Part shown: one piece after another, positions 280-22,197 of the stretch
How positions within the stretch are numbered: position 1 is the first letter of the stretch
How the letters are laid out: each line of letters opens with the position of its first letter
IMG/VR virus record: IMGVR_UViG_3300027233_000001
Coordinates: 1 to 64,000 of that record
Source of the DNA: a virus
Direction: 5' to 3' (one strand)
DNA length: 64,000 nucleotides
Position numbers and translations under genes: made by a program
Notes under the pieces: generated by a model
What the model saw: the letters and a program-made list of their open reading frames with translations, nothing else
Told to the model about the DNA's origin: nothing
The model's database searches: none

Positions 280-1267
280 GACTACAGAAACTTGTAATTT
301 AAATTGTGCACATTGTTTTACCTCTGGTATCAATGGTCGTAAAATTTATTTTGATGCAGATAAAACTGCAAAGTGGTGTAACGAGCTAGACGATGGTTCA
401 AACCGTATTCACTTCGAATATCATGGTGGAGAACCTTTGCTAGCGCCTATGAAAGATCTGTGGCATTTCTACAATGTTACGAAAGATCATTGGGGTGATA
501 AATGCACACATGGTATTACAACAAATCTAACTTATAAACTTACAGATGAACGTATCGAGTTTCTTAAAATATTAGACTCTGGTTCTATCGGTACATCTTG
601 GGACCCAAATATTAGATTTGCAAATGAAAAGCAGAGAAAGTTATGGGAAGATAATGTAAAGCTTTTGGTAGCTGAGGGATGTTATATCCAATGCTTTATT
701 TCAGTGTCTAAAGATGTTGTTGCAATGGATCCTCTTGAAATTGCTGATTATATGTATTCATTAGGTATTGGTACTATTAGTTATGAAAGACTTACTCATG
801 ATGGTAACGCAACGATAAACACAGAAATCTTCCCTCATAATTCTGAGCTCGATGCTTTTTGGATGAAAATGCATGAGACAACTAAAGATCACCCTATTGA
901 AAACAACTTTCTTAACTCAGTTTATGATAAGTTTAGTAAAGGTCAATTCTTTAATGGTACGTTCTGTAGGGATTGTGAACAAAAGATACACACAATCAAT
1001 GCTGATGGAACTGTAGCAGGTTGTCCTAATACTGCGCCTACTCAATGGTATGGTGATATTAGTATGCCAGCAAAAGAAGTAAGATTAAGCCCGAAACGAA
1101 TGGAAATCATTTCGTGTGAAACTCATGATCGTGATCCAAGATGTTATGATTGCCCAGTCTTTATCTATTGCCATTCTGATTGTCACCAACTTCAATGGAT
1201 GGAAGACGTTTGTCCAGCGCCTAAAACTCTAATGCTAAAACTAGCAGGAGATAAGGGATGGATTTAA
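239..1267 (+). CDS. Radical SAM protein with SPASM-like C-terminus (rSAM 1)
   Basis: This 342-aa enzyme has the canonical [4Fe-4S]/SAM-binding motif C19-x3-C23-x2-C26 (ETCNLNCAHC) and a G-G-E-P motif at 63-66 that contacts the SAM methionine. The C-terminal third is cysteine-rich: CRDC, then AGCPN, then CYDCPVFIYCHSDC, and a final CP near residue 325. That pattern fits a SPASM or twitch domain holding auxiliary Fe-S clusters, typical of enzymes that modify peptides (sactisynthase, anSME and quinohaemoprotein maturase types). The ATG at 239 lies inside the upstream cupin gene and the stop overlaps the next rSAM gene by 10 bases. The protein is expected to be cytoplasmic. Its substrate is unknown; no obvious precursor peptide is encoded on this strand of the window. 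Confidence 0.88.
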   Translation: MAFTTQKHLIVYVKTTETCNLNCAHCFTSGINGRKIYFDADKTAKWCNELDDGSNRIHFEYHGGEPLLAPMKDLWHFYNVTKDHWGDKCTHGITTNLTYKLTDERIEFLKILDSGSIGTSWDPNIRFANEKQRKLWEDNVKLLVAEGCYIQCFISVSKDVVAMDPLEIADYMYSLGIGTISYERLTHDGNATINTEIFPHNSELDAFWMKMHETTKDHPIENNFLNSVYDKFSKGQFFNGTFCRDCEQKIHTINADGTVAGCPNTAPTQWYGDISMPAKEVRLSPKRMEIISCETHDRDPRCYDCPVFIYCHSDCHQLQWMEDVCPAPKTLMLKLAGDKGWI

Positions 1268-2295
1268 TTATTAAACCCACTGAAGCTTGCAATTTTAAAT
1301 GTACATTTTGTTCTTCTACCGACATCGATCCTAACGAAGTTGGCTTATTAGACTTGGAATACATATACAAATTTCTTAAGCGATATCCCGATACTAATAC
1401 TATTATCGTTAATGGTGGTGACCCTCTTATGGTAAAGCCAGAATATTATCAGGAACTAATAGATCATCTTAATGAACATGATTATCCCGCATCAATTAGT
1501 TTTACATCTAATCTGTGGCCTTTTTTAATGCGTCCCGAGAAGTGGCTTCCTATCTTTAAGAATGATAGGTTTGGTTGTGCAACATCATTTCAATATGGTG
1601 GTGGTAGATTAAAAGGTGATTATTCCGAATTTACTGAGAAAGATTTTTGGATGGTATCAAACGCTATGTTGAAACACACTGGAGAAAGACCAGACTTTAT
1701 TGCCGTCATAACAGATGAGAACGAACATCTTGCTATTAAGAACGTTGAACTTGCTAAAGAAATGGGTGTAGAATGCAAACTAAATTATGCTATGGCTTCT
1801 GGTGTTCAAGGCAGTACATATCAGTTAAGTAAGATTTACGAAACATATCTTGAGATATACGATCGTGGATTAGCAGAATACGAATATAATACAAAGCAAA
1901 TGATGAAACGCCTCAAAGGTTTTTCAACATCTTGTCCACAAAATAGACAATGTGATAGTGGCATTCGAGCTTTTAACCCTGGCGGTGATTACTATTCTTG
2001 CGGTTCGTTTGCTGATGATATGGATTATCCTATTGATTTTGAGGAAGAAATGAATGGCGAAATGCAGACTCCATTGGCTAACGATCCTCATATCCAAACA
2101 ATGAAGATGGCTTGCTATACGTGTCCAATGTTCGAAATATGTAATGGTTGTAAAAAGACAGTACGTGATATGAAAAGAGAAGGGACAAATGAAGCACATT
2201 GCAAACAAATGAAAACGCTCGCTCCAAGAATACTTGCTACGAATGGAATGAGCCCAGATATGGTGACGCCTTATGTTGATGAATCTATCAATTAA
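1258..2295 (+). CDS. Radical SAM protein with SPASM-like C-terminus (rSAM 2)
   Basis: A 345-aa protein with the rSAM triad C11-x3-C15-x2-C18 (EACNFKCTFC) and a G-G-D-P variant of the GGEP motif at 53-56. The C-terminal part carries CPQNRQC, YYSCGSF, and the cluster ACYTCPMFEICNGC with a further HC, consistent with SPASM-type auxiliary Fe-S ligands. The start has a good ribosome-binding site (AGGAGATAAGG just upstream) inside the end of rSAM 1, indicating coupled translation. The rSAM triad begins only ten residues from the N-terminus, so there is no separate N-terminal RiPP-recognition domain. It differs in sequence from rSAM 1 and rSAM 3, so this is a set of divergent enzymes and not a recent tandem duplication. 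The reaction is not predictable. Confidence 0.88.
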   Translation: MDLIIKPTEACNFKCTFCSSTDIDPNEVGLLDLEYIYKFLKRYPDTNTIIVNGGDPLMVKPEYYQELIDHLNEHDYPASISFTSNLWPFLMRPEKWLPIFKNDRFGCATSFQYGGGRLKGDYSEFTEKDFWMVSNAMLKHTGERPDFIAVITDENEHLAIKNVELAKEMGVECKLNYAMASGVQGSTYQLSKIYETYLEIYDRGLAEYEYNTKQMMKRLKGFSTSCPQNRQCDSGIRAFNPGGDYYSCGSFADDMDYPIDFEEEMNGEMQTPLANDPHIQTMKMACYTCPMFEICNGCKKTVRDMKREGTNEAHCKQMKTLAPRILATNGMSPDMVTPYVDESIN

Positions 2296-3187
2296 TCCCA
2301 CCTACTATTGTAACTTCAGTTGTGATTTTTGTTATTTAACGCCAGCACAATTAAACGATAGACATAAGATAACGCCTTTATGGTTAGATCATTCTTTAAG
2401 TCAAGTAGATGATCAAATAGGGCACGTAGATCTATACGGCGGTGAGATTGGTTTACTATCACCAGAATATTATTATTCATTAAAGAAAGTAATACGTAAT
2501 TATTACAAAGGTCCTATCAATATCAATACTAATTTGTCTGCGTTCCCAGACTTCTTTCGAGATGAGGATGTAACATTATCTGTATCATATGATTTCCATG
2601 CCAGAGAAAAAGAACAGCATGTTTTAAATAATATGATGAACGCCAATAAGGATTTATCTGTATTAATATTGGCCTCTCCAAAAGTATTAGAGATGGATGT
2701 AGAGTTTATGATCTTCACTCTTAATATGGTATCTAATATTAAGTCTGTAGAAATTAAACCTTACTCAATAAACCAAGCAAATGCACATCCTGTTACACAC
2801 AAAGACTTTGAAGATTTTGTTATTAAGTTTGACGAAGCAAAAACAGAGAAAAAGTTTAATTTTCAGAATATGGATAATATATGGAGAAGCATAGATAAAG
2901 AGTATGATGCTTTTAGTAATGATCATGTGTATATTACTCCATCTGGTAAGTTTGGGGTATTGGAGTTCGATAAATATGATAGGGAATACTTCAAAGAATA
3001 TAAAACATATTATGAGTACAAGAAGTGGGCAAGGGAAGAACCTGAGAACAATCTAAGCGAAATATGTAAGACGTGTAAATATTATGGTAATTGTTTAACA
3101 GAACATTACCGATATGTTAAAGATTTGACTAATAGTTGTAATGGATATAAAGGATTGTTGGAATATTATGAAAGAATGGAAAGCTAG
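2273..3187 (+). CDS. Radical SAM protein, short (rSAM 3)
   Basis: A protein of about 304 aa with the triad C13-x3-C17-x2-C20 (YYCNFSCDFC) followed by YLTP, and G-G-E at 56-58. The C-terminus has a compact CKTCKYYGNC...C cluster that could ligate one auxiliary Fe-S cluster. The start is ambiguous: ATG at 2273 and an in-frame ATG at 2279 both lie in the overlap with rSAM 2, and neither has a strong Shine-Dalgarno. The product is identical apart from two residues. It is the smallest of the plus-strand rSAM proteins. The strict gene overlap suggests one polycistronic transcript. Substrate unknown. Confidence 0.83.
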   Translation: MLMNLSINPTYYCNFSCDFCYLTPAQLNDRHKITPLWLDHSLSQVDDQIGHVDLYGGEIGLLSPEYYYSLKKVIRNYYKGPININTNLSAFPDFFRDEDVTLSVSYDFHAREKEQHVLNNMMNANKDLSVLILASPKVLEMDVEFMIFTLNMVSNIKSVEIKPYSINQANAHPVTHKDFEDFVIKFDEAKTEKKFNFQNMDNIWRSIDKEYDAFSNDHVYITPSGKFGVLEFDKYDREYFKEYKTYYEYKKWAREEPENNLSEICKTCKYYGNCLTEHYRYVKDLTNSCNGYKGLLEYYERMES

Positions 3188-3566
3188 ACAAAGCGCATAT
3201 CATTTGACAGCATCTTTATTCAAAGATGATCTGACTGACGTGGAGATTAATTGGCAACCTGACCTTACGGTTGAGTTTGCTCTAACACACTTCAGAGAGT
3301 ATGTAGACGAATGGATTTACCCAGCTAAATCATATGTAGTTGCTATATGTTATGCTCATTGGTTAAACAGGGATTTTAACGAACCGTTTTTCGATGCACT
3401 TAACGATCCTGAGTTACTATTTAATAATGATCCGCACTTTGTTCCATATTGGCAAGACAAAGAAACTTACGACGAGATACTATTCCAACTAGAGTTTAAT
3501 GAAAAACTTGGTATGGTTCCCGATATCTACGAATACTATAAAGAGGAAATGTTATTTGGACTTTGA
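3168..3566 (+). CDS. Hypothetical small acidic, aromatic-rich protein
   Basis: I do not recognise this protein. From the ATG at 3168 it is 132 aa; an ATG 27 bases upstream (3141) is also open but lacks a ribosome-binding site. It is rich in Trp, Tyr, Phe, Asp and Glu (for example WQPDLTVEF, HFREYVDEWIYP and YEYYKEE), with no signal peptide, membrane span or metal motif, and it looks like a small helical cytoplasmic protein. It overlaps rSAM 3 upstream and rSAM 4 downstream, so it belongs to the rSAM operon and may be an accessory or substrate-recognition protein. It could equally be a substrate, but it has no repeat or Cys-rich core that would suggest a modified peptide. Confidence 0.62.
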   Translation: MKEWKARQSAYHLTASLFKDDLTDVEINWQPDLTVEFALTHFREYVDEWIYPAKSYVVAICYAHWLNRDFNEPFFDALNDPELLFNNDPHFVPYWQDKETYDEILFQLEFNEKLGMVPDIYEYYKEEMLFGL

Positions 3567-4635
3567 AATAACAAAAACATTATTAGAAACTAAACGACCT
3601 GATATCGCTGAGATTGAGTTGACTTTATTTGAAAACTGTCACCTCAATTGTTCGTTCTGCCATCATGATAAAAAATCTACCGTAGGATTGAGTAGGGAAG
3701 AGATATTCTCTAAATTGGATTTAGTTGAACAACATGTCATTAAGATGAAAGGCAGAGTTGATATAATCCAAATCAATATGGTTGGCGGTGAGTTATTCCA
3801 AGATAGAATATCAGAATGGGCTTACCCTGTTTACTTTGATTTCCTTGTAGCAATTAAAAAGATATTTGACGAACATAAACAAAAAATTAAAGTTGTGTGG
3901 GTAACATCGTTTCAATTTAGTAAACGAGACAGAGTTCAGCGACTGCTCGACGACCTAAACGCTGAAGCAATTCCTTCACATATTATATGTTCATATGACT
4001 TTGATGGGCGACCAACAAAAGGTCCATATGCTAAAAATATAGAATACTTTGCCGACTATATCGTATCAATTAATATGGTTGCTACTACTTTATCAATAAA
4101 AAAGTTTATGGCAGACGATGATGAGTATTTTCACTATCTATATGAAAAGTTTGATAACTTTTACTTTGATGATTACATTCCAGATCGTGGTTATGATTAT
4201 ATGATTCCATCTGATAGTGAATACTTAGAATTTCTTAAATTTGTATATCATAACTATCCCGATATTAATCCTATAAAAGATCTTATATATAATGATAGTA
4301 ACCATATGCATTGCTTGGCTTTAAATAAGGTTACGATATTCCCCGATAATTCTACATCTAATTGTAGATGGGATAGATATGATCAGAGAGATTTTAATAC
4401 AGAATATAAACCCAAAGATAATGCTGGTATGATGCAAGCATATATGGACGAGAATGGTTGTTTATCTTGTAAGTGGTGGAACAAATGTGGATTTAGATGT
4501 TATACCCAATGGGATTGGAAGAATAGAGAACGAGACTTACCTGACTGCATCATGAGAATGTGGTTTAACTATATGGAAAAAACTGGACAGAACTTAATTA
4601 CAGGATTTGATTATGAGAAAAAAACTAGAGATTGA
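3556..4635 (+). CDS. Radical SAM protein with SPASM-like C-terminus (rSAM 4)
   Basis: An rSAM protein with CHLNCSFC (C28-x3-C32-x2-C35 from the chosen start) and a V-G-G-E motif. C-terminal cysteines (NCRWDRYD, then CLSCKWWNKCGFRC and DC) fit a SPASM-like auxiliary cluster region. The start is uncertain. The TTG at 3556 has a strong Shine-Dalgarno (AAGAGGAAA, 3541-3549) at good spacing and overlaps the upstream gene by only 11 bases. An in-frame ATG at 3499 would add 19 residues but has no clear ribosome-binding site and a 68-base overlap. The C-terminus contains WWNKC and CYTQWDWKN, unusually rich in Trp. It is the fourth divergent rSAM on this strand. Function unknown beyond radical chemistry. 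Confidence 0.83.
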   Translation: MDFEITKTLLETKRPDIAEIELTLFENCHLNCSFCHHDKKSTVGLSREEIFSKLDLVEQHVIKMKGRVDIIQINMVGGELFQDRISEWAYPVYFDFLVAIKKIFDEHKQKIKVVWVTSFQFSKRDRVQRLLDDLNAEAIPSHIICSYDFDGRPTKGPYAKNIEYFADYIVSINMVATTLSIKKFMADDDEYFHYLYEKFDNFYFDDYIPDRGYDYMIPSDSEYLEFLKFVYHNYPDINPIKDLIYNDSNHMHCLALNKVTIFPDNSTSNCRWDRYDQRDFNTEYKPKDNAGMMQAYMDENGCLSCKWWNKCGFRCYTQWDWKNRERDLPDCIMRMWFNYMEKTGQNLITGFDYEKKTRD

Positions 4636-5326
4636 AGCTTACACTTACGATAAAAGCGTTTTCGAAAATTTTAAATGGACATCTAAAATTAGAAAGCCTT
4701 CATGGTGGAAAAAATTGTCGACAATGTACACTGTTTATAATTCAAAGTCAGGCATTATGGTTCCAACCCCAACTGTAAAGGCTTGTCCTGGAATTACACA
4801 ATATATGCAAAAAGCTATTATAATGAGATTGTGGTCCGATATGATTTTTAGAGTTGAACCAAACGGAAAGGTTTCGTCTGCAAGTCCGTTGCATTCTCAT
4901 CAAGTCAGTACTGGTGTGCATGAACAAAGACAGTATGGCGATGATTTTTATAAGGGATATGCTGTCGTGAAATTAGAAGCTCCTTGGTATTTAAAAGCTA
5001 AGAAGCCAGTAGATTTTATGAATTGTGAATTTCATTACAGTGAAGATTTACGCAAGCATGGGATACTTGTAGCACCAGGCGTTCTTAATTTCTATGATCA
5101 ACATGCGATTAATGTATTCTTATTGTTTCCTTTAAAAGACGAAACATACGAAGTTAGATTAAATTACGGTAACGATCTGATGGCGATTTATCCAATGGAA
5201 GATATCGATGTTACTTTTAAAAATATATTTGTAGATAGCATGGAACAATGGGGTAAGATTAATGATTCGTTTCCAAGAACATTCTTAGGTCGTTATTACT
5301 CCAGGAAACGTACAGCCCGTAAGTGA
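4613..5326 (+). CDS. Hypothetical protein at the end of the plus-strand rSAM block
   Basis: A 237-aa protein of unknown function. The ATG at 4613 is preferred over the TTG two codons upstream; it lies within the 3' end of rSAM 4. It has no Cys cluster, signal or membrane span. Visible features are KACPGITQYMQ near residue 50, a mid-protein segment with several His residues (PLHSHQV, GVHEQRQ), EAPWYLK, and a C-terminal Arg/Lys tail (YSRKRTARK). The overall look (mixed beta, many aromatic residues) resembles a conserved hypothetical family I associate with marine T4-like phages, but I cannot name it. Its final 42 bases overlap, tail to tail, the last 42 bases of the minus-strand rSAM gene, so the two blocks converge here. 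Confidence 0.68.
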   Translation: MRKKLEIEAYTYDKSVFENFKWTSKIRKPSWWKKLSTMYTVYNSKSGIMVPTPTVKACPGITQYMQKAIIMRLWSDMIFRVEPNGKVSSASPLHSHQVSTGVHEQRQYGDDFYKGYAVVKLEAPWYLKAKKPVDFMNCEFHYSEDLRKHGILVAPGVLNFYDQHAINVFLLFPLKDETYEVRLNYGNDLMAIYPMEDIDVTFKNIFVDSMEQWGKINDSFPRTFLGRYYSRKRTARK

Positions 5327-6304
5327 ATGATGTTCCATATAACTTAATACGCCTTTATCAATACATGTCATTAGGTTTTTACAAGAGGCGCAGTTATCAG
5401 TTTTACTTGAATAAGACAACTGTGACATAAACTTATTTTCTTTTACTTGAGTCCATGATTCAATATCGTTCTCATCTTTAACTTGGAATTCATCAGTACC
5501 TATTAAAGCGATGTCATATACGAATGGCGTCCAAAAGAAACGTTCGTTGCAGTAAGTATAGTTTAACTCTAAAGAACCACCTTGCGCTTGGTCAATAAAT
5601 GTTTTAGGCATAAGATTATCTGAGAAGTCATAGTTCTTCCATTTCTCAATAAGATGTTTTTGAACCTTAGATTTTGGTGCTCTAAAGAATGACGGGTTTA
5701 ATGTAAGGATTGAGTCAAACCTATCCTCAACAAGTTCTGACATTTCAAGCACTTTAGAATTGTACTCGTCATCATTACCCATGTTATAAACCATATAATA
5801 ATTTAGATCATCCGTAAATCCATTCAGAAGGTCTAATCGCTCTTCTACCCAATCCCAATTTACAGGAGGTTGTAAAGCTATATTACAATCATATAAAAAT
5901 CCATCTATTTTAGGGATGCTGTTAAGTAGTTCAATAACTTCTTGCGAAATGCTTGTTAGGGTTGTTACGAATTGTATAGTAGAAACCTTGCTTAAACACT
6001 CTCGAAATGTTTCGTCTTTTAATAACTCGATAACATTATTATTACCAAATAAATCAGTAGGCCCAATATTAATGGTTGACACTCTGTAACCGTTTGCATT
6101 AAATAAATCTATAGCGTTATTAAGTCTATCATAAGATCCCATGTTGGAACCAAGTTTGTTTACAAAACAACCTTTACATTTAAACTCACACCCCGATAAT
6201 ACTTCGCAATTAAACTGTACTTTAATTTCATGTCCTTCAGAGAATGATAGATCAAAATCTTTATCAGCTTTAGCAGCTCTTAGGTTATTAGTAACTATTC
6301 CCAT
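5285..6304 (-). CDS. Radical SAM protein, CxxxCxGCF/IGPTD family (rSAM 9)
   Basis: Last gene of the minus-strand rSAM run. With the ATG at 6304 (GATGAGG eight bases upstream, 17-base overlap with the previous gene) it is 339 aa; longer in-frame starts up to 6367 would overlap more and are less likely. The triad is C39-x3-C43-K-G-C46-F (SGCEFKCKGCF), followed by N-I-G-P-T-D where other rSAMs carry GGEP, and by a C-terminal CASCKNLMTC...C cluster. These three features, with the same spacing, are shared with the four other minus-strand rSAM proteins here. It is the most divergent of the five: the motif after GCF is VNKLGS, not xRRGN. Expected role: SAM-dependent radical modification of a protein or peptide, substrate inferred from context to be a virion protein. 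Confidence 0.85.
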   Translation of the reverse strand: MGIVTNNLRAAKADKDFDLSFSEGHEIKVQFNCEVLSGCEFKCKGCFVNKLGSNMGSYDRLNNAIDLFNANGYRVSTINIGPTDLFGNNNVIELLKDETFRECLSKVSTIQFVTTLTSISQEVIELLNSIPKIDGFLYDCNIALQPPVNWDWVEERLDLLNGFTDDLNYYMVYNMGNDDEYNSKVLEMSELVEDRFDSILTLNPSFFRAPKSKVQKHLIEKWKNYDFSDNLMPKTFIDQAQGGSLELNYTYCNERFFWTPFVYDIALIGTDEFQVKDENDIESWTQVKENKFMSQLSYSSKTDNCASCKNLMTCIDKGVLSYMEHHSLTGCTFPGVITT

Positions 6305-7445
6305 GATAAACCTCATCATCAAATAAAGCAATAACATCTTTATTAAGAATGCATTCCTTTCTTCCATTAAATACTGTATCCATTATTAATGGCACCATTC
6401 TGTTCGCGCATATGTTAAGATATTTGCATGTTCCACATTCTTTTTCAAGACTATTTTCAATTTGACTATTGACAATTTCATTCTTTCTATCTAGTATGAA
6501 ATCAGATATATCAGCATCTGGTAACCACATCCAACCATCAGATACTAGAAAATCTTCTGTGTGTATCTGAGCATTTTCGTATATGAAAGGAGACAAATAC
6601 ATGTTTCCTTTGTGAATACTTATAACTGAATAATTAAATGCTTTATGCGATACATCTCCCTGTAAGAAGTGAAACTTATTTTTAAAACGATGCGTATCTA
6701 ATGCCAATCGAGTTAACATATCATTCCATTCAAATAGTTTATCACCGTGCTTTGCACTATGGTTAAATGATCTAACTACAGAAGGTAATACTTCGATAAC
6801 AGTTTCGTATTTCGAACGAACAAAATCAATAGCTGGGTATAGTATTTCTTCTACACCTTGAACGATATTAGTAGCCATTGATATTTCGAAGTTTAAAGAG
6901 CTGTTTTTAAATGTCTCTATCCTTTCATCAAGCGCATCGATATATTCTTGGTCATTCATTAATCGATTTAAATCCAAAGCGATCTGAACATCCCAGGCTT
7001 CTACTGCTTCTCCTAAAGGCGATTTCTCAATATCTCTTATCTTTCCTTCAATATCTTTCTCAGATAACGAACCAAGTATAGAACAATTGTGTTGAATGTT
7101 TCTATTATCTTTTGGCATCATCTTAATGGCGTCAGATAATTTTAAATTATTGATAATCTCATCTAAGTTTTCAGCTCCGTAGAAATCAGTAGGTCCTATC
7201 ACAATATCATCTAATACGATGTCTGTTCTATCTTTTAATTCGTAAGCCAAAGAATGAAACATTGTTATTGATTTTGGATGCCAGTTTCCGCGACGTTTCA
7301 CAAAACAACCAGGACACATATAAGAGCAACCTTCTAATATTTCTAGGTTAACTTGAATTTTATATTGTTTCATACTATCAATAGAAGCGAACTCTTCACC
7401 CATTCCGCCTCCACTTACTATATCTTTCCAATCATTATTTAACAT
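6288..7445 (-). CDS. Radical SAM protein, CxxxCxGCF/IGPTD family (rSAM 8)
   Basis: A 385-aa member of the five-protein family. The triad is C40-x3-C44-P-G-C47-F (GCSYMCPGCFVKRRGN). I-G-P-T-D is at 83-87, followed by FYGAEN. Near the C-terminus lies CGTCKYLNIC, then a final EC about 20 residues on, plausible ligands for an auxiliary Fe-S cluster smaller than a full SPASM domain. A shared 'PFIYENAQIHTEDF' type segment (approximately residues 280-295) also recurs in the paralogues, so the family is conserved along its whole length. The ATG at 7445 has AAGGA eight bases upstream and overlaps the end of rSAM 7 by 11 bases. Confidence 0.86.
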   Translation of the reverse strand: MLNNDWKDIVSGGGMGEEFASIDSMKQYKIQVNLEILEGCSYMCPGCFVKRRGNWHPKSITMFHSLAYELKDRTDIVLDDIVIGPTDFYGAENLDEIINNLKLSDAIKMMPKDNRNIQHNCSILGSLSEKDIEGKIRDIEKSPLGEAVEAWDVQIALDLNRLMNDQEYIDALDERIETFKNSSLNFEISMATNIVQGVEEILYPAIDFVRSKYETVIEVLPSVVRSFNHSAKHGDKLFEWNDMLTRLALDTHRFKNKFHFLQGDVSHKAFNYSVISIHKGNMYLSPFIYENAQIHTEDFLVSDGWMWLPDADISDFILDRKNEIVNSQIENSLEKECGTCKYLNICANRMVPLIMDTVFNGRKECILNKDVIALFDDEVYHGNSY

Positions 7446-8592
7446 AAGATATATCCTTAATTCTTTCTAATTCTGGATCATCATCTGTGGTGACTAAAAA
7501 CTTTTTGCGATAACCTTTTTTGTCATTCTCTACAGAATATCCTTCCCATTTATACATTTCTTGTGCAGGGCCATTATAATTGTGTATATTGTTCAACATA
7601 TTCTTTTTAGGAGCAATGCATCTATCGACTCCTAAATAATCTCTTAATAAGATAATTTTTCTATTATAACAAGAAAAAAACAACTCGCAATTTTCACATT
7701 CAGTTCCTTTTGCTCTACGTATCTGGTCTTCTACCATTGGTACGACATCTTCAAAAGAATCTATCTTAAACATTTCATGGTATATTGCCATATTTTCATA
7801 CATAAACGGACTAAGATACCACTCTCCTCTTTTATAGTTTAAAACAGTATAATTAATTCCAGCATGAGAATGATCAACCATAATGTTATTAAGATTAGTA
7901 TCTTTGGCTAAGACATTAAAGTAATCATTAAACTTATCAAGAGTTTCTAAAATCATTTTTGCTTTATGAGAGCGCGATACGCTTGGAATAAAATCTAGGA
8001 TTGTATCAAACTTTTCTACCGCGTATCTGTGAAGTTCAGAATAATCTAGATCGTAATCTCTTATATTAACAACAAAAGTATAAGTTACTTCATGTTCTAG
8101 ATTTTGATCTATATAATATAACATATCAGAGATGTGTTGTAAATAGTCTTTATCGAAAAACTTATAAGGATTTGACGCAATACCTATTTCTATCTCAGTA
8201 TCTAAATTTACATAGTCTGTAATAAACTCGCAAAATCCTTCTATGTCTCCATCAATTAATGTAGAAACAAACGCTAATATAGGAGAGTTCTCATTTATAA
8301 TATCTAATAAATCAGGCATGACATCAAAGAAATTCTCTGATGCTAAAAAGTCAGTAGGACCAATTAATATTTCATCAACAAGTATGCCTTGATCTGTAAT
8401 ACTTCTGATAAATTGCTTTGCATTCTCTAACTGATTTTTATCACTTGAGTTACCACGTCTGTGTACAAAGCATCCAGGACACTTATGGTGGCATCCGTCT
8501 AAAACGTCTAGCTGTATCTTAACCGCTGATACAGGCTTTGTCTGAGTCTCTGTGGTCATCTCATAGTATAGATTATTCTTAATTAGAGGCAT
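7435..8592 (-). CDS. Radical SAM protein, CxxxCxGCF/IGPTD family (rSAM 7)
   Basis: A 385-aa member of the same family: C34-x3-C38-P-G-C41-F (GCHHKCPGCFVHRRGN), then I-G-P-T-D-F, and a C-terminal CENCELFFSC...C cluster. 'SPFMYENMAIYHEMF' near residue 270 matches 'SPFIYENAQIHTEDF' of rSAM 8. It has an extra C-terminal tail of about 60 residues after the cysteine cluster, rich in charged residues and ending in KDISYVK, which the paralogues lack. The start at 8592 overlaps the upstream rSAM by 14 bases; its Shine-Dalgarno is weak, consistent with translational coupling. The pairwise similarity to rSAM 8 makes these two the closest pair in the set by eye. Confidence 0.86.
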   Translation of the reverse strand: MPLIKNNLYYEMTTETQTKPVSAVKIQLDVLDGCHHKCPGCFVHRRGNSSDKNQLENAKQFIRSITDQGILVDEILIGPTDFLASENFFDVMPDLLDIINENSPILAFVSTLIDGDIEGFCEFITDYVNLDTEIEIGIASNPYKFFDKDYLQHISDMLYYIDQNLEHEVTYTFVVNIRDYDLDYSELHRYAVEKFDTILDFIPSVSRSHKAKMILETLDKFNDYFNVLAKDTNLNNIMVDHSHAGINYTVLNYKRGEWYLSPFMYENMAIYHEMFKIDSFEDVVPMVEDQIRRAKGTECENCELFFSCYNRKIILLRDYLGVDRCIAPKKNMLNNIHNYNGPAQEMYKWEGYSVENDKKGYRKKFLVTTDDDPELERIKDISYVK

Positions 8593-9601
8593 ACATGTAT
8601 TCTTTCAATGCGACGCAAGTGTCTAATCCTCTCGACTCCATATACAAATGAACGTTGCGTTCTGCACAACTCATCATATATTCACATCCATTACAGTCAT
8701 CAACTTGTTGTGCATATTCTATGTTGTCGTATAAAGTATTAGCATCCATATTTGTTTCAAACTGAGGTGTACGTTGAATAATCACATCATATAAGAATGG
8801 ATTAATATAGAGTTTGTTATTATAAAAACTATAATTTTGACAACCATAACCGTTAAACTTCGCATCAAAAAATGTATATAAGTTTAGCCATTTTTTATCT
8901 ATGTTTTGTTCAACCATTTCACGTCTAAAGTTTGTAAGGTGTTGTTCTACTTTACCTCTTGCATTTCTATCAGTTAAGAAAGAAGGCGTGATTATAACTG
9001 GCGCGTTAAAGTCATCGAATACTTTTTGAGCTAATTCATTGTATGAAATGCGTTTGAATATATCTTTATGATAGTTAACTCTAAATTGCACAGAACCATG
9101 TTTAAACATCGCAAGTTTACGATACCAATCATCTAATTCTCCATCTAAATATTTGTTTATATCTAAAACAATTTTAAAATCAATATCCGGTATTCTCGCT
9201 ATATTGTTATATAAACTCCATATCTTATCAAGTTTATCTCTTATTAATTGATAAGGTTGAGTTAAAGTGGATGTAAATCCTACTGCAGATATTCCGTATA
9301 TTTTTTCCATATAAGGATGATTCATGATTTCATTGAAATTTTCAGCATCGAATATATCAGTTGGGCCGATTGTTATTTCGTCAGGATAATACGCGCCTTC
9401 TATAAGAAGATTATATAAGGTTTCTAGGTTATCTGCTTTTGTTAAGTTTTTTCTTGGTATAAAGCATCCAGGACATTGTTGAGAACATCCGTGTAAGATA
9501 TCTAAATTTATTTCTGTTCTGAGAAAATCAATATTTGTTGGACTTTTATCTTCATCATATGTATAATAGCCAGCATAAGAATTATTTAGATGGACTATCA
9601 T
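8579..9601 (-). CDS. Radical SAM protein, CxxxCxGCF/IGPTD family (rSAM 6)
   Basis: With the ATG at 9601 it is 340 aa; a TTG at 9628 is also open but overlaps the upstream gene more. C39-x3-C43-P-G-C46-F (GCSQQCPGCFIPRK) is followed by T-I-G-P-T-D-I-F-D-A-E-N and, at the C-terminus, by CNGCEYMMSC...C. The segment 'NPFLYDVIIQRTPQF' corresponds to the PF(I/M)YEN segment of rSAM 7 and 8. The spacing of the rSAM triad from the N-terminus (39/43/46) is identical to rSAM 5 and rSAM 9, which supports the chosen starts. Its start lies inside the 3' end of the 301-aa hypothetical gene. Confidence 0.85.
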   Translation of the reverse strand: MIVHLNNSYAGYYTYDEDKSPTNIDFLRTEINLDILHGCSQQCPGCFIPRKNLTKADNLETLYNLLIEGAYYPDEITIGPTDIFDAENFNEIMNHPYMEKIYGISAVGFTSTLTQPYQLIRDKLDKIWSLYNNIARIPDIDFKIVLDINKYLDGELDDWYRKLAMFKHGSVQFRVNYHKDIFKRISYNELAQKVFDDFNAPVIITPSFLTDRNARGKVEQHLTNFRREMVEQNIDKKWLNLYTFFDAKFNGYGCQNYSFYNNKLYINPFLYDVIIQRTPQFETNMDANTLYDNIEYAQQVDDCNGCEYMMSCAERNVHLYMESRGLDTCVALKEYMYASN

Positions 9602-10487
9602 TGAACTTATCTTCAAGACCGTCGACAAATTTATCGATATGTTCGCCCTCAGTTTCTTCTAATAGCGCGTTTATATCTACGGTTTCGATTTTAGCCCAAA
9701 ACCATGCTGGGAACAATGCCATAATCTGATCTATAACCCTAGTTTCGTTCATAATGTAGTATAAATCTTTACCAAAGTACTTTGGTTGTTCATTATAAAC
9801 TGTTTTATTATAAGTCGAGCTTACACCCTTATTATGAATAATACATAAAAACCCGTCCCAAGCTTCTGTAATAAATCGTGCAACGTTAGGTCCGCAATTC
9901 GATGGTTTATCATAAACATCAATATTATTAATAAAGTTTGTAAGTTCTTTCTCTTCTTTTTTGGCTTCGTCAGTCAAGTTTTCATGCAAATTAACCATAG
10001 CCCACGGCACAGAATCTCTAATAGTTTCGATTAGTTCATCGACTAATTCAATGTTCTGTTCAATAAATTGATGTATTTTTTCTTCTGGGAATAAAATAGT
10101 TAATTTCTTTTCAGCACCGTTGATATCATAATGCAATCTCATTCTGACTATAATAGAAACCATACGCACAAGAATTGGACAATCAATCATAAAATCTGAT
10201 TTAATATATTCTGTAATTAATTCTTCATCTAAGAAAGTAAAGCCAGCCTTAAAGTTGGTGTTTGCCAAATATATAATAATATGCTTAGGGCTTAATTTCT
10301 GTTTAGTTTGATAGTAGTCTACATAGAGAATAAAGTCTTTATCTTCTTCTTTTTGTTTATATATCGCAACTAAATCTTGAGGAGCAAGAGGTAAAGTATA
10401 AGCTTTAAAATTCTTCTCACGCTCTGAAAGTTTGTGATCTTCGAATTCTCTGTCTGGATTCAAGTTGTTTGTATCATTATCATTCAT
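9582..10487 (-). CDS. Hypothetical protein, 301 aa, embedded in the minus-strand rSAM operon
   Basis: I do not recognise this protein. It has an acidic, Asn-rich N-terminus, a mixed alpha/beta body, and an acidic C-terminus (ALLEETEGEHIDKF). There is no signal peptide and no Cys cluster (only single cysteines in MIDCPIL, SNCGPN and FLCIIH). The ATG at 10487 is preceded by AGGATG, which overlaps the TAG stop of the upstream gene, so translation is coupled. It lies between rSAM 5 and rSAM 6, separated from rSAM 5 by the 360-aa gene. Its position suggests an accessory role (substrate binding, scaffold or a fibre-assembly chaperone), but no domain supports a specific function. An HHpred or structure-prediction search for a PqqD-like winged helix would be informative; I do not see that fold by eye. 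Confidence 0.7.
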   Translation of the reverse strand: MNDNDTNNLNPDREFEDHKLSEREKNFKAYTLPLAPQDLVAIYKQKEEDKDFILYVDYYQTKQKLSPKHIIIYLANTNFKAGFTFLDEELITEYIKSDFMIDCPILVRMVSIIVRMRLHYDINGAEKKLTILFPEEKIHQFIEQNIELVDELIETIRDSVPWAMVNLHENLTDEAKKEEKELTNFINNIDVYDKPSNCGPNVARFITEAWDGFLCIIHNKGVSSTYNKTVYNEQPKYFGKDLYYIMNETRVIDQIMALFPAWFWAKIETVDINALLEETEGEHIDKFVDGLEDKFNDSPSK

Positions 10488-10497
10488 TTATTACATC

Positions 10498-11580
10498 CTA
10501 TAATGTGTATTTGTGTATCAAATATGGAATTCTATTTTGTCTTTTAGAGAAGAACTGAACATCAGTGTTAATCAACCTCAAGTCTTCTGTTAGATTATCC
10601 ATATCAAAACTACGCTCAAGCACCTTTTTAACGATAGGGAATACGTTGCTTATTTCGGTATACATATCCCAAAATTCCCAACCATCTCTTGTGTTATCTC
10701 TTTTATCAGTATGTGCAAGAATGAAAGCTTCGTTATCTTTTACCCTATTCCATAACTCTTCCAATTGATAAAACGCAATTTGATAATTACCTTTATTAGC
10801 AGCTTTCATATAAACATCGTTTACAAATTGTTGTTTATCTACTGGTAAACCGTTATTGTTCATCCAATCAATTACAGAAAGAATATATGCCAAGTAGTGG
10901 CGCCGTGACGTAAAGTGTTCCATAACATCTTGTGCCATATCAGCGCTATGAATTGTAAACTTCTCGATTAACAGAGCTTGTACTTCTGCGCAGGGATAGA
11001 ATTCGTTTAAAAAGAATAAAAAGTCATAGCTAAAGTTTTTACCGTTTTGATATATAACATCAAAAGGTGGAGTTTCTGGATTATTCAAAATAGTTTCAAC
11101 TGTGTTTGATATATCTTGAACGGCAGGAGCCGCTGACATATACGTGAACATACTATCACAATCAAAGATTTTTTCCATAAATTCACCAACAATAGTGTTT
11201 ACGTCGTGATCAGTATCTGCATAGAAACCAGCAGCGGCTAATAAGCCAGCGGCATATCTTGCGTGAATGTGAATTTGATCTTCTTCTTCCCAAGCTACAA
11301 GAATATATTTTTCGCTATTTTGGATAAACTCACTAGTACAAACTTCTTCCCAAGGTTTAAAAATAATATCAGCACCGGCATTAGCGCGAATAGAATCAGC
11401 ACGTACTCTTACATCATACTGGACGATTTGGCTGTCTGGCATTGATGATTCAATCATACAAACTGTTCTAGGTGTTTTCGTGTGATAAAACGAGTTCATC
11501 TCGAAAAATACAGTTTCGAGATTAGTCGAGTTTGTAATATATTTTTTGTTATTTAAAAAATAAAGGTGTTGACCTATCAT
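10498..11580 (-). CDS. Hypothetical protein, 360 aa, coupled to rSAM 5
   Basis: I chose the ATG at 11580 because it forms an exact ATGA overlap with the stop of rSAM 5; a longer open frame to 11625 is less likely. The product begins MIGQHLYFLNNKKY. The N-terminal half looks beta-rich and the C-terminal half helical, with segments such as FTSRRHYLAYILSVIDW and GNYQIAFYQLEELWNRV. An H-I-H-A-R motif and scattered cysteines are present but no recognisable metal site. No transmembrane segment or signal. The stop-start coupling to an rSAM gene that itself follows the CHxS-tailed proteins makes it a candidate partner of the modification system. Function unknown. Confidence 0.72.
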   Translation of the reverse strand: MIGQHLYFLNNKKYITNSTNLETVFFEMNSFYHTKTPRTVCMIESSMPDSQIVQYDVRVRADSIRANAGADIIFKPWEEVCTSEFIQNSEKYILVAWEEEDQIHIHARYAAGLLAAAGFYADTDHDVNTIVGEFMEKIFDCDSMFTYMSAAPAVQDISNTVETILNNPETPPFDVIYQNGKNFSYDFLFFLNEFYPCAEVQALLIEKFTIHSADMAQDVMEHFTSRRHYLAYILSVIDWMNNNGLPVDKQQFVNDVYMKAANKGNYQIAFYQLEELWNRVKDNEAFILAHTDKRDNTRDGWEFWDMYTEISNVFPIVKKVLERSFDMDNLTEDLRLINTDVQFFSKRQNRIPYLIHKYTL

Positions 11581-12752
11581 GATGTTACTCCTAGTTTTTC
11601 CATCGCATCGTCGTTCCAAGTCCAATCGTATGGGTTATATTCTGCAAGGACATCTTTGTTTAAAACACATCCATCGACGTTTAAAGTTTCTTGAGCTTCA
11701 AAAATTAGTCTACTTGCACAAGCTACGGCAAATTGGCATCCGTTGCAATCAGATACTTTGCTTGATCTATTTATGCCCTTGGTTACTAGCTCGTTTTTAC
11801 GATCTAATATTTCTTCGAAGGTAAGACCTGTAACGTCTAAGTTTTTATTATTAAGGAAGAATGCTTGTTCGTGTAGCATTACATTTAAATGTGTAGTAGG
11901 TCCGTGTTCTCCTGGTACGATTGTAAGTCCAATAAAGTTAATTGAGTTACAATAAAGATTAGCCATTGACATAACTGTCTCTTGTGCGTTATCTTTATCA
12001 ATAACTCTACCAAGGAAATCGTTCCATCCAAACAGGTTTCTACGCTGTACCAATTGGGATCTCGCTCTTGAGAAAGCAGGGTTCATTTCTACAATAGTCT
12101 TGTATTCGTTTACTGATTTTTGAACAATCTTGTTATATGTTTCTTTATCAATCTTCTTACCAACAACGTTAGAAGCCTGTAGTGTCCAAGACCAATCCAT
12201 TTGTTTTGGTGTATTATTTTTAAAGAATTCTACTTTTTCCATAACATTATTAAAGTATTCTTCATCATTTAACATCTGATCTACTTTACCGATTGGCATA
12301 ATAAACTCAATGATCATATCACGGCGATACTTATCTTCGTCATCAAGAATTGCATAGATTTCTTTTACTCTTTCCATTGTAGCGATATCAAATTTTGCAG
12401 GTGCTGCAATCCGAGCGCCAACGTGTTCTCTCATAATCTCTTGGACTACTGAGTTATTTAAAACTGACTCCGTGTTAGTTGCAGAAAAGAAATCTGTTGG
12501 ACCTATGACAAATTCTCTAAGATTAAGCCCAGTTCTTTTTACACCATCAGCGAGTTCCTTTGCTCTATCAATAATTTGTTGGTTCATATCAGGATTAATG
12601 TTTTTATCTACGAAACAACCTAAGCAACCGTGATCGCACCCAGCTAAAACTTCCATTTGAATAAGAACATCGAATTTAGATGCATCAGATGGTGTTAGAC
12701 TTTCTGGTCCAGAATATCTCATTTGTTTACAATATGATTTTTGCATAGACAT
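11577..12752 (-). CDS. Radical SAM protein, CxxxCxGCF/IGPTD family (rSAM 5), coupled to CHxS protein B
   Basis: From the ATG at 12752 this is 391 aa. The start codon overlaps the TAA of the upstream CHxS protein B gene (TAATG), with AGAGGA ten bases upstream, so the enzyme is translated in step with its neighbour. C39-x3-C43-L-G-C46-F (GCDHGCLGCF) is followed by V-I-G-P-T-D-F-F and a C-terminal CNGCQFAVAC...C cluster. It is the longest of the family through insertions in the middle of the barrel. Being directly coupled to the two small C-terminally conserved proteins, it is the best candidate for the enzyme that modifies them. That link is inference from gene order, not from a recognised precursor-maturase family. 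Confidence 0.88.
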   Translation of the reverse strand: MSMQKSYCKQMRYSGPESLTPSDASKFDVLIQMEVLAGCDHGCLGCFVDKNINPDMNQQIIDRAKELADGVKRTGLNLREFVIGPTDFFSATNTESVLNNSVVQEIMREHVGARIAAPAKFDIATMERVKEIYAILDDEDKYRRDMIIEFIMPIGKVDQMLNDEEYFNNVMEKVEFFKNNTPKQMDWSWTLQASNVVGKKIDKETYNKIVQKSVNEYKTIVEMNPAFSRARSQLVQRRNLFGWNDFLGRVIDKDNAQETVMSMANLYCNSINFIGLTIVPGEHGPTTHLNVMLHEQAFFLNNKNLDVTGLTFEEILDRKNELVTKGINRSSKVSDCNGCQFAVACASRLIFEAQETLNVDGCVLNKDVLAEYNPYDWTWNDDAMEKLGVTS

Positions 12753-13174
12753 TAGCGTCTTCCTCTCGATGTGTGACAACTACTATGGCAACTAGCATGG
12801 CACGCGTTAATTGTCTTGACTGTATTTACGATTCTTTCCTCCATTAGATCAACAGCTCTTCTTACAGCATCTTCTACAGTATCTACAATATCTTGAGCAT
12901 ACATAAGTCCACCTGCAGTAATTCCAGAGTCATAATAGCCGTCAAAGAGTGCATCGCGCCCGGTCCAGGAGTAATGAAGATATCTTCTAGTAAAGGTTGA
13001 GTTTGTAGTATATTGAGCACCGTCAAGCCTCAACGCACCGCCATATGCGCTATCAAATCGATAATACCGAACATACGTATTTACGGTATATGTGACGGTT
13101 TTATCAAAAGTTCTTAGTTGTGAGCCAGAATATGTTTGTACATATGAGTTAATGTCAGATACTGATGCAGCCAT
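12752..13174 (-). CDS. Small virion-type protein B with (CHxS)3-RGRR tail; candidate rSAM substrate
   Basis: A 140-aa protein whose last 16 residues read CHASCHSSCHTSRGRR, three tandem Cys-His-x-Ser units and a basic RGRR end. The body has SQLRTFDK, an aromatic-rich beta region (VRYYRFDSAYGG, RRYLHYSW) and a helical stretch with VRRAVDLMEER before the tail. It is a paralogue of the protein encoded just upstream; the tails are 15 of 16 identical while the middles are very different. The gene is joined by TAATG overlaps to protein A upstream and to rSAM 5 downstream, with AGAGGAAG before its own start. No signal peptide. The layout (leader-like body, short conserved C-terminal core, adjacent rSAM) matches a RiPP precursor. 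The tail could instead be an unmodified metal-binding knob. Confidence 0.8.
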   Translation of the reverse strand: MAASVSDINSYVQTYSGSQLRTFDKTVTYTVNTYVRYYRFDSAYGGALRLDGAQYTTNSTFTRRYLHYSWTGRDALFDGYYDSGITAGGLMYAQDIVDTVEDAVRRAVDLMEERIVNTVKTINACHASCHSSCHTSRGRR

Positions 13175-13587
13175 TATCTTCTTCCTCTAGATGTATGACA
13201 ACTACTATGACAGCTTTGGTGACAAGGACGTGCAGTCATACTTCTGTTAGTTAGTCTGCCTTCGACCAAATCAACAGCTCTTCGAACAACATCAGTAATT
13301 GAATCAATAACATCTTGTGAACGGATAATACCACCGGTATATATTCCGCCATCAAGATAGTTTTCAAACAATGTGTTATTTGCGTTAACATATTCAAATC
13401 TGTGGTAATGAGCACTATTACCATACCAACCATAGCCGTTAACAATCATCCATGATCCGTAAGAGCTATCAAACCCCCAAATACGAACCCACGATTGTAT
13501 TGTAATAGTAATTCCTTTATCAAACGTGCGTAGCTGTGCCCCAGCTTTTTCTTGCATGCTAGTGTTTAAATCTGCATATGATGGCAT
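13174..13587 (-). CDS. Small virion-type protein A with (CHxS)3-RGRR tail; candidate rSAM substrate
   Basis: A 137-aa paralogue of protein B. It ends CHQSCHSSCHTSRGRR. Shared with B are A/SQLRTFDK near residue 20, WVR/YVR followed by FDS-YG, a G-I-x-x-GG segment, QD(V/I)(I/V)D, and VRRAVDL about 30 residues before the end. The central part is strongly Trp/Gly/Tyr-rich (WGFDSSYGSWM, NGYGWYGN), like the exposed loops of fibre-tip proteins. The start at 13587 is one base after the stop of the giant fibre gene and has GAGGTGAAAG upstream. Its place directly downstream of a long fibre gene corresponds to where T4 keeps gene 38, the fibre adhesin/assembly factor. I infer it is a virion or fibre-tip protein; direct proof is lacking. 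Confidence 0.8.
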   Translation of the reverse strand: MPSYADLNTSMQEKAGAQLRTFDKGITITIQSWVRIWGFDSSYGSWMIVNGYGWYGNSAHYHRFEYVNANNTLFENYLDGGIYTGGIIRSQDVIDSITDVVRRAVDLVEGRLTNRSMTARPCHQSCHSSCHTSRGRR

Positions 13588-13588
13588 A

Positions 13589-16500
13589 TTATACTTTCAC
13601 CTCTACTTCACCATTTTCGGAGTCGCTAAGCGCAATTCCTATAATTTCATGACTATTTATACCAGAAGTACCATAATCTATTCCTTTACATTTACCGTCA
13701 ATATCAGGTATTAACCATTGACCCTTTTTAACGTCTCCATTTACTTTACACGGTATACGTCCTTTAAGAGCAATATAAGGGTTCATTTTACCTTCAAGAG
13801 AGTTATCATCTTCGATTTCCATGTCGTTCATTTTAACACCAGGCGATGTAGAAATAACTCCTAAGATAGGCATTCCTGGTTGATAAAGAGTACCTTCAGA
13901 TTCACCGTCTAGGTTCATACCTAGTAATGTACCATTCTCATAAACTTCGTCAGCGCTATATCTTTCTGCAAGGTCAGCCCATTGTGCTGACGTAGCTGTA
14001 CCGACATAAACGCCATCGTTATTAACATAAGCTTTATCAGTACCATCTCTACGGAATTGACAAATTCTATTTGAGTTACCACCAGCAGCGATATAAAATC
14101 TATCTGAGTGATATTCAATTTTACCTTTATCATTCCCAGGGTTACCGGTCCAAGTTGTGTTTGAATCCTCATAATACCAGTGGTTTGGAGACGAACCATC
14201 TGTCATTCTAGTTCTAATCATCCATTGACCGCCATCATTTAAGTATCCACACCAACTTGATGAGTCACCGTGTAACCACATCCTAATATTGCCGTCATAT
14301 GTTGATCTTAATTGCATATTAATAGCACTGGCGTTATTATTACCAGTCGCGTGCCAGTATTGAGACGATCTCGCATAGAAGTGACAACCGTTATTTTGGT
14401 TATATAAACCTTCTGCGCCATTATCATTACGGAACCAGTTACGAGCATAGAATTCATTTGCACGAACAGATGTAGCAAAATTAGATGAACTGTTCGGATT
14501 ACAATAATAACCAGTGTCGTTTGAGTCATAGAAGATAGGCGCTCTGAAACTGTATGCTGAGTAAGCATAGTTATCATCACCGTATACTCTAAACAAGTCA
14601 CTATTAGCAATAGTACCAGTAGCACTACCATGGCGACCAATATAGAAGTCAGCTCCAGATGTATTATTGTTGTTTGAGTCTAGGTTAATAAAAAGAGAAC
14701 CATAGGTGTTAATACGAATATCGTCAGTTGCGGTTCCTGTAGAACCACGAGATGCAATACCATGGTTTGTACTATCATCACCATAGAAAGTAATCCAATC
14801 TCCACGATCACGCATATCAAAACGATCGGCTCGTATAGTGCCCATTTCAGATGTACTTGCAGGGTTCGTGTAACGAGCTGTATCGTTCGAGTCATAAAAA
14901 ATAGGCGATCTTAATGAATTGCCTGATTGCAATGAGTTATTTACATAAACATCGTTAGCACCTAATGGGTCACTACCATTATTGATTGACATAACCTGAG
15001 TAACCATGTTATAGTCATTATAGAAACGCATACCTTGGTAACCAGAGTTTGCACCAAACTTAATACCAGTATGGAAAGCAATTCTTAAATCTGGATATGG
15101 GCTGCTCCAACCACCGCTTTCACGATAAATCGCGTATGCAGTAGATGCGTTATCAGCAAAATATAGTCCAAAAGTATCGTTTTGTGATACTGCATCTCTA
15201 TGTGTAAAACGGTTTGCTTGAACAGTACCAGAAATTCTTGCATCGCCGGCTGGATTTACATAATAATTTGAATCGTCTCTATCATAAAAGATAGGAGCAT
15301 AGAAATTATGGTGCGCATCTACTTTAGAGTTAGTAGCTTGTAAAGCCCAACCATTATCTTGAGATAAGATACCTACTTCATCACTATTGTTTGCGTAGAA
15401 TGAACCTCTTAAAGTATTACTAGCTGTGTTCATTTCTATTTTTACAGTAGTCTGTCCGCCGTATGCTCTCCAAGTGGTATTATTTGTTGAATACCAATGC
15501 ATACCCGTTGCTTGGTTATACATACCCTCGCCAGAGTTATCATTTCTGAACCAGTTACGTGCATAAACCTCGTTTGCGCGAATACTTGTATTAAAGTTGG
15601 AGGCTCCTGCTGGATTACTATAATAACCAGTATCATCTCTATCGTACATGATAGGAGTGTCTAATCTGCTTCGAATTAATGTTTGACCATCACCTCTGAT
15701 AATCACATTCCAATCACCGGATAGGCCGCCGTCCGTAAATCTAATATCTTCACCGCCCGATGTAGCAATTTTAAGGTGCGCATCGTTGTCGTCAGTTGCT
15801 TGCATATATCCGCGAATATTACCGGCTGCTGTTTGGAACTCTGCATAACCACCAGACGCATACCTAATTATATTAACAATGGATGTTGATGCAAAATCAC
15901 CGTAGTATGCAGTATTATTTGAATCATAGTATCTTGATGCATAGAAAGGCGTATTACCAGGGTTTGCGTTATATATCGCAACATCAGAATACGCGGAATA
16001 CGCTGTACCACTGTTAAAAGTTTGTTGCCATAAACGCATTCCACGACCAGACTTCTTAAACATAAGAAGGTTATCTGATCCACCTGATGCATCTGTATAA
16101 GATCTTAAGTGTAAATAATCAGCCCAAGGTGATGTGTTGTTATTATTCCAAGATGTGAAACCAAACGTTAATCTGCCTGCAGTATGATCATTTGGCTCAA
16201 TATCTCTGTTATCAACTCTTAATAAGTTCTCAGAATACCCAGCGATATTTCCACCGATAGGGTTATCAACGTCTAAATCTAAGAACCTTGATGTGCCAGC
16301 AGGGTTAACAGTATACGCTGTATTATTTCTATCTGCCATGTAATCAGCTATTAGTCTGCCATAAATTGTAGCGCCACCAGAGTTCGTGCTGAATTTCTCT
16401 CCACCGTTATGATAAAGTTTAACATCACTATTCTGTAGGAATTGAGCAGACCATTCGTTATTCGTATCGTTATAAATGCCTGACATTCCAGCGCCACTTG

Positions 16501-22159: not shown

Positions 22160-22197
22160 TCGGTTCACTCTCCCCAGTTAGGCTTCTATTTTTCTTT

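Follow-up and report, generated by a model that had tools for sequence, protein, structure and literature searches.

Phage proteins ending in a three-fold Cys-His-x-Ser tail are linked to radical SAM genes: a candidate system for virion-protein maturation

Among the closest described systems is the His-Xaa-Ser (Hxs) system; according to PMC9062424, Haft and Basu described a motif of this kind together with HxsB and HxsC. We analysed a phage locus that resembles this system in part. It lies in positions 1 to 64,000 of the IMG/VR virus record IMGVR_UViG_3300027233_000001 (66,408 bases), and this whole 64,000-nucleotide stretch is called the window below. Next to a very long tail-fibre gene, the window encodes two small proteins, A and B, which both end in (CHxS)3-RGRR, here termed the CHxS tail, together with radical S-adenosylmethionine (SAM) genes that we named P1 to P4 and E1 to E5. 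Across the viral contigs analysed, CHxS proteins are tightly linked to P1–P4, to a cupin-like protein and to the partner proteins U2 and U1 or V1.

Radical SAM genes of phages have been in print before. They have been noted in RP12 and RP31 (PMC5468394), CP220 and CPt10 (PMC2853527) and pelagimyophages (PMC7029224), and the papers on FLC6 (PMC8066314) and SURPRISE13 (PMC11898562) list cupin, radical SAM and 2-oxoglutarate-Fe(II) (2OG-Fe(II)) genes within gp70–gp82. In the accessible text of these papers the genes are only listed, or termed accessory, metabolic or flexible, and the CHxS protein is not mentioned there; the term 'radical SAM' is absent from the main text of an overview of jumbo phages (PMC7824862). 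The listed genes of FLC6 and SURPRISE13 flank a CHxS gene, gp72. Within the accessible parts of the open-licence PubMed Central literature, we found no link of radical SAM enzymes to a CHxS phage protein.

We ran a degenerate pattern for (CHxS)3-RGRR, which did not demand a stop codon, on IMG/VR and obtained at least 119 stretches. Three loci (L047, L048 and L064) are on the same contigs as L003, L001 and L051 and were not run. All 116 contigs tested carried a radical SAM gene, 114 by Pfam (45/45, 48/50 and 21/21 in the three contig sets) and two by our own profile. Both contigs missed by Pfam, L071 and L101, encode radical SAM enzymes of the E type, which the Pfam model does not see. Three to six Radical_SAM matches were present in 92 of the 116 contigs, compared with a match in 8 of 47 control viral contigs and a maximum of two per control contig. 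The controls were contigs of at least 12 kb chosen with an unrelated 16-mer (47 among 120 stretches). The same tail pattern matched only 10 contigs in genome_contigs (84,980 species), all from metagenome-assembled genomes or bins, and a radical SAM relative was found within the 8 kb fetched in 10/10 cases. Because many contigs are near-identical relatives, these locus counts are not independent events. We rejected the possibility that CHxS proteins commonly occur without radical SAM genes, given the 116 of 116; a first-pass annotation of the window, made from the sequence alone, had taken the tail and the radical SAM genes for one peptide-modification system, and this claim withstood the comparison. 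The contig of L106 (G145, 159618 bases) has fifteen Radical_SAM matches, many of them far from its CHxS genes.

The reverse search started from a P1 profile and used the best 80 of 360 contigs. A CHxS gene lay downstream of P1 in 75 of these 80 loci; in 70 it overlapped P1 or lay within 41 bp of the P1 stop, and in five it lay 926–1007 bp downstream. The contig ends before or inside the CHxS gene in the remaining five loci. We discarded one additional match in this set, a frame of 34 residues in L400, as spurious. Searches of 50,697 named phage records with P1 and with U2 returned the same seven records, representing six phages (Atu_ph07 twice). The tail was present in FLC6, FLC8, SURPRISE13, pPa_SNUABM_DT01 (DT01), Agrobacterium phage Atu_ph07 and Sinorhizobium phage Phosso, whose host is S. 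meliloti (6/6 read), with an RSRR ending in the last two. No match to named phages was obtained by tblastn with protein A and two other CHxS bodies.

The motif formed the extreme C-terminus in all 149 open reading frames among the IMG/VR matches listed. In 161 distinct C-termini, C1, H2, C5, H6, C9, H10, R13, R15 and R16 were invariant, positions 4, 8 and 12 were S, N or A only, and position 14 was G, S, N or A, giving the consensus (CHx[S/N/A])3-R[G/S/N/A]RR. Three H-x-[S/N/A] units occurred in 161/161 tails, including 75 found without the pattern. Most of this census came from loci found with the pattern, which itself requires the motif; its independent part consists of the 75 P1-derived tails, which comprise 31 different 16-mers and all conserve the nine C, H and R positions. 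The bodies of the 149 proteins fell into five single-linkage blastp groups, two of which hold 144 of the 149. Tail serines are encoded by both TCN and AGY codons, and the reversed tail pattern gave no match in 47 records, which argues for selection on the tail at the protein level. These two results and the P1-found tails led us to reject chance or low-complexity sequence as the origin of the tail, and its C-terminal position in 149/149 frames, where no stop had been demanded, likewise indicates more than chance.

A cue to the location of the protein comes from Atu_ph07, where the CHxS gene is gp170 (RefSeq numbering). By electrospray ionization tandem mass spectrometry, 131 proteins were detected in Atu_ph07 virions, the majority from the clusters of coding sequences 31–76, 170–215 and 284–329 (PMC6102473). 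The accessible part of that paper agrees with RefSeq numbering at gp181 (baseplate), gp198 (portal), gp204 (prohead core) and gp215 (major head protein), and on this numbering the first gene of the 170–215 cluster is the CHxS gene and the last encodes the major capsid protein. P1 (gp171) and the cupin (gp172) are inside this range, and U2 (gp169) and two radical SAM genes (gp165, gp168) are just outside it. This is a cue, not proof, that the CHxS protein is part of the Atu_ph07 virion. From the position of CHxS genes beside fibre and baseplate genes, and from the start of the Atu_ph07 cluster at the CHxS gene, we infer that a virion or tail-tip protein serves as the substrate.

We mapped 43 loci, namely 40 IMG/VR regions (from 45 contigs; G036, G038, G040, G043 and G045 were left out), FLC6, DT01 and the window. 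The gene caller missed the pattern-found CHxS gene in L004, L138, L152 and L174, leaving 39 of the 43 maps for distances; in 35 of these the nearest radical SAM gene overlapped the CHxS gene or was no more than 41 bp away. The typical order at loci with a single tail gene is fibre, a protein of ~75 aa, one of ~460 aa, cupin, P1, CHxS, U2, V1, P4, one or more small proteins often of 2OG type, P2, P3 and U3. By best match to the window enzymes, each of P1–P4 occurs nearly always once per locus, and several of the missing P1–P4 and partner genes coincide with contig ends. The cupin is present in 36/43 loci including the window, usually just upstream of P1. V1, a different protein of ~370 aa, was found near U2 in 28 of the 43 loci and U1 in nine, never both together. 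A profile comparison of U1 with V1 gave a probability of 6%. In DT01, Atu_ph07 and Phosso, U2 comes after P1 and CHxS; in FLC6 it lies one gene further along. Two U2-like genes occur in the single locus L014 (1347–2087 and 3225–3869).

2OG-Fe(II) oxygenases often share a contig with a CHxS protein: Pfam 2OG-FeII_Oxy_3 matched 24 of 45 contigs, not always close to the tail gene. The window adds the extra radical SAM genes E1–E5. The fragment L071 (1–10721) combines an SU10-type capsid protein and a collagen-like fibre with two 2OG-Fe(II) oxygenases, CHxS, U1, U2 and radical SAM enzymes of the E type. The SU10-type capsid protein indicates that the system extends beyond T4-like phages.

Inside the window (Table 1), the first-pass annotation had described two paralogous proteins with (CHxS)3-RGRR tails, and both are present, with 46% identity overall. 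The TAATG junctions it reported are also in the sequence, that between B and E1 on condition that E1 starts at ATG 12752 and not at the longer TTG form. The minus-strand order after A and B is E1, U1 (375 aa), U2 (301 aa) and four further radical SAM genes, down to position 5285; the five radical SAM proteins of this tight run share CxxxCxGCF and four further invariant Cys in the alignment. The architecture was right as described and incomplete: it missed the cupin, P1–P4 and U3 on the facing strand (1–5326), where the plus-strand genes, U4 included, are part of the same system and converge head-on with the minus-strand run. The fibre length of 2,856 aa given at first applies from an internal ATG, and from the GTG it is 2,859 aa.

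Table 1. Position of the CHxS locus features in the window
Feature	Position	Strand	Basis and occurrence
Cupin-like protein, C-terminal part (cut by contig end)	1-279	plus	phmmer homologues in 35 further loci (43 mapped)
P1, SPASM-like radical SAM, core group	239-1267	plus	Radical_SAM 8e-6; best-hit group in 38/43 loci
P2, SPASM-like radical SAM, core group	1258-2295	plus	Radical_SAM over cutoff; 34/43 loci
P3, radical SAM, core group	2273-3187	plus	Radical_SAM 4e-4; 31/43 loci
U3, small conserved protein	3141-3566	plus	phrog_20737 8e-35; 25/43 loci
P4, radical SAM, core group	3499-4635	plus	Radical_SAM 7e-3; CxxxCxxC; 36/43 loci
U4	4607-5326	plus	phrog_7084 3e-13; 4/43 loci, in maps only where two CHxS genes
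E5, extra radical SAM	5285-6367	minus	CxxxCxGCF + four C-terminal Cys; best match in 11/43 loci
E4, extra radical SAM	6288-7445	minus	Same Cys alignment as E5; 7/43 loci
E3, extra radical SAM	7435-8592	minus	Radical_SAM 6e-4; E-type Cys alignment; 13/43 loci
E2, extra radical SAM	8579-9628	minus	E-type Cys alignment; 8/43 loci
U2, conserved partner protein, no recognised fold	9582-10487	minus	phrog_20767; 38/43 loci
U1, conserved partner protein	10498-11625	minus	9/43 loci
E1, extra radical SAM directly after B	11577-12779	minus	Likely start ATG 12752; best match in 12/43 loci
Protein B, CHxS substrate candidate	12752-13174	minus	140 aa; weak phrog_35144 match 3e-5
C-terminal tail of B, CHASCHSSCHTSRGRR	12755-12802	minus	Translation and motif census
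Protein A, CHxS substrate candidate	13174-13587	minus	137 aa; phrog_35144 1e-5
C-terminal tail of A, CHQSCHSSCHTSRGRR	13177-13224	minus	Translation and motif census
Very long tail fibre, directly upstream of A	13589-22168	minus	Open reading frame call

P1–P4 and E1–E5 have the CxxxCxxC cluster motif and auxiliary Cys of the radical SAM superfamily. Pfam Radical_SAM matched P1–P4 and E3, with P2 alone over the cutoff, and gave no match in E1, E2, E4 and E5. P1 has 3 + 8 invariant Cys in an alignment across eight relatives; P1 and P2 fall just below the cutoff of the SPASM model TIGR04085 (24.3 and 21.4 bits; cutoff 27 bits). E1 has 21% identity to a gene within the CHxS cluster of FLC6. The cupin homologue in L173 matched Cupin_2 at 25.4 bits (cutoff 27.2). 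Pfam gave no match for A, B or U1 and none over the cutoff for U3, and A and B matched no NCBIfam family at E up to 0.5. The AlphaFold2 model of protein A (mean predicted local distance difference test score, pLDDT, 80) has a helix-hairpin-helix body, and its CHxS tail (pLDDT about 50–55) is predicted to be disordered; U2 was modelled with a pLDDT of 86. At E of 0.001 or less, protein A had no match in solved structures or viral predicted structures, and U2 had no confident structural match either (best Z 2.5); these negatives do not imply that either fold is new. Searching PDB sequences with P1 and with the U2 and E-type profiles gave nothing useful.

Several genes upstream of the fibre match tail, fibre and baseplate families, including PHROG baseplate wedge and fibre families. 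T4-like tail genes are among them, with a gp6-like domain over its cutoff and gp9/10-like and other baseplate matches below theirs. One minus-strand open frame among the tail genes (34049–46090) spans 4,013 aa. A 1,564-aa protein (28933–33627, minus) has matches to numerous tail fibre families, among them collagen-like minor tail proteins, and might instead be what the 2OG hydroxylases in such phages act on. A subtilase-family protein (Peptidase_S8, 7e-26; 56114–57772, minus) lies among baseplate and tail genes and might process a structural protein.

Taken together, we consider it probable that the locus encodes a maturation pathway for a virion protein that follows the logic of ribosomally synthesized and post-translationally modified peptides (RiPPs), with three repeated modifications on a tail-associated protein. 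A fixed C-terminal target and a fixed enzyme set together suggest the relation of a RiPP precursor to its maturases. The radical SAM enzymes would act on the tail and modify its three repeats alike. The products would most plausibly be carbon-carbon crosslinks of a His-x-Ser cyclophane type or Cys thioether crosslinks, and the cupin and 2OG enzymes would add a later oxidation or hydroxylation. U2 and U1 or V1 may present the substrate to the enzymes. The modified protein would stay part of the virion, associated with the tail or fibre, and its rigid, possibly metal-binding tip could contact the host envelope. In NCBIfam, P1 and P2 come closest to peptide maturases or crosslinkers (DarE, PapB, DynA). 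In a three-residue cyclophane the second residue after His must be unbranched and carry a beta-carbon, as is the case in H-x-[S/N/A]. We favour three identical crosslinked units with later oxidation, as read from these sequence likenesses, and the data fit cyclophane and thioether chemistries alike.

Several points weigh against this interpretation. The control contigs were unmatched for phage type, the reverse search covered the closest 80 of 360 P1 contigs, most census tails came from a pattern with the motif built in, and near-identical contigs reduce the independence of all counts. The label of a RiPP locus, given by the first-pass annotation, holds in that a precursor-like gene stands beside radical SAM genes; the near-invariant putative core and variable body depart from ordinary RiPPs and are the reverse of most of them. 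A PqqD-type recognition domain, an element not common to all RiPPs, was found in none of 45 contigs. Nor do the folds of U2 and the CHxS body disclose a role, as neither has a confident counterpart among the structures searched. Finally, presence in the virion hangs on one cluster boundary in one paper, as far as its text is accessible (PMC6102473). The earlier interpretation is overall partly supported: the linkage and the likely substrate are upheld, and chemistry, virion location and function stay putative.

Other explanations share parts of this evidence. The tail could be a metal or iron-sulphur binding element, with the CHxS protein as a redox or cluster partner of radical SAM enzymes that act elsewhere. 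Its three Cys-His pairs make a plausible metal site, radical SAM enzymes require clusters and electrons, and the genes travel together. A carrier, however, should keep its body and should not need RGRR, whereas here the body varies and the extreme C-terminus alone is fixed; a location among tail genes and the virion cluster of Atu_ph07 also favour a structural protein, and we regard such a partner role as unlikely. Alternatively, cleavage of the tail might yield a free small peptide (a bacteriocin, signal or cofactor), the body being just its leader. This would suit the RiPP-like architecture with its several tailoring enzymes; the RR end might mark a processing site, and a subtilase is encoded elsewhere in the window. 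Yet ABC_tran was found in 7 of 45 contigs (two over cutoff), always more than 30 kb from the tail gene, and the body exceeds typical leader size, has a mostly confident fold of its own in AlphaFold2 and is encoded among virion genes. The lack of PqqD-type domains in the 45 contigs and of a transporter near the tail gene fits a product that remains attached to the protein, and release of a peptide appears quite improbable to us.

We give the least credence to a target elsewhere, such as the fibre, a surface sugar or a nucleotide, with the CHxS gene as a mere neighbour. Phage radical SAM clusters are not all of the CHxS type: Campylobacter phage CP220 has a run of radical SAM genes with an amidinotransferase (record 70690–77721; L178:20690–27721), the three-fold CH pattern is absent throughout its genome, and this run may serve a different substrate. 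Against a neighbour role for the CHxS gene stand the two-way linkage across divergent phages and an invariant tail that needs a reader.

The maturation pathway can be put in a broader form, to which we assign about an even chance: a widespread, so far undescribed virion-protein maturation system of several unrelated phage lineages, in which four radical SAM enzymes, a cupin, 2OG-Fe(II) oxygenases and two partner proteins would turn the three CHxS units that close a tail-associated protein into a covalently crosslinked, possibly metal-holding tip used at the host surface. Radical SAM chemistry would then be part of a virus particle, to our knowledge for the first time. Already, a specific candidate substrate, with an unvarying target of 16 residues, can be named for one class of phage radical SAM genes, and it occurs in cultured phages. 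If the proposal is true, enzyme-made crosslinks join the toolkit of virus particles, a large peptide-modifying radical SAM family gains a known substrate, and a new question arises on how phages touch their hosts.

As in RiPP systems, an encoded precursor candidate is found here with adjacent modifying enzymes, and several known maturases can be compared with P1–P4. The closest NCBIfam models of P1 are DarE, PapB, CbpB and HxsB, all far below cutoff. DarE for P1 and DynA for P2 (1e-14), both below cutoff, point to the darobactin-dynobactin systems. Triceptide or cyclophane maturases belong to the same enzyme superfamily as P1–P4, with matches under the cutoffs (P1-AmcB 27.1/425, P1-YhhB 24.6/445, P2-XyeB 21.7/450 and P3-GrrM 12.9/310 bits). 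The triceptide crosslink motif is an aromatic-x-x over three residues, with which H-x-S of the CHxS tail is compatible in sequence. The triceptide and darobactin-type products we know of are released peptides, in contrast to a protein tail encoded beside virion genes.

The ranthipeptide maturase PapB matched P1 over nearly its whole length (37.9 bits; cutoff 340), and a Cys-rich substrate tail is a further likeness. The acceptor residue of PapB is Asp or Glu, whereas Asp occurs in 1/161 CHxS tails and Glu in 0/161. P2 resembles the anaerobic sulfatase maturase (NCBIfam 7e-11, 41.8 bits, cutoff 349.45; PDB anSME 5e-7), which converts Cys or Ser to formylglycine within the sulfatase signature C-x-P/A-x-R. 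The last repeat plus Arg, C-H-x-S-R, is similar to this signature. Because the key position is mostly Gly, Ser or Thr (Ala in 4/161, Pro in 0/161), we retain formylglycine at the last repeat as a possible product and a lead only.

The likeness to the Hxs system consists in a C-terminal His-x-Ser repeat and linked radical SAM enzymes. At the level of families the matches are weak and far below cutoff (P1-HxsB 33.2 bits, cutoff 370; P2-HxsC 24.5 bits, cutoff 267.9), and A and B, matching no NCBIfam model, match none for the Hxs repeat protein HxsA. Unlike the Hxs system, the CHxS system has a Cys that opens each repeat, exactly three repeats, an RGRR end and four core groups of radical SAM enzymes, and it is found in phage tail operons.

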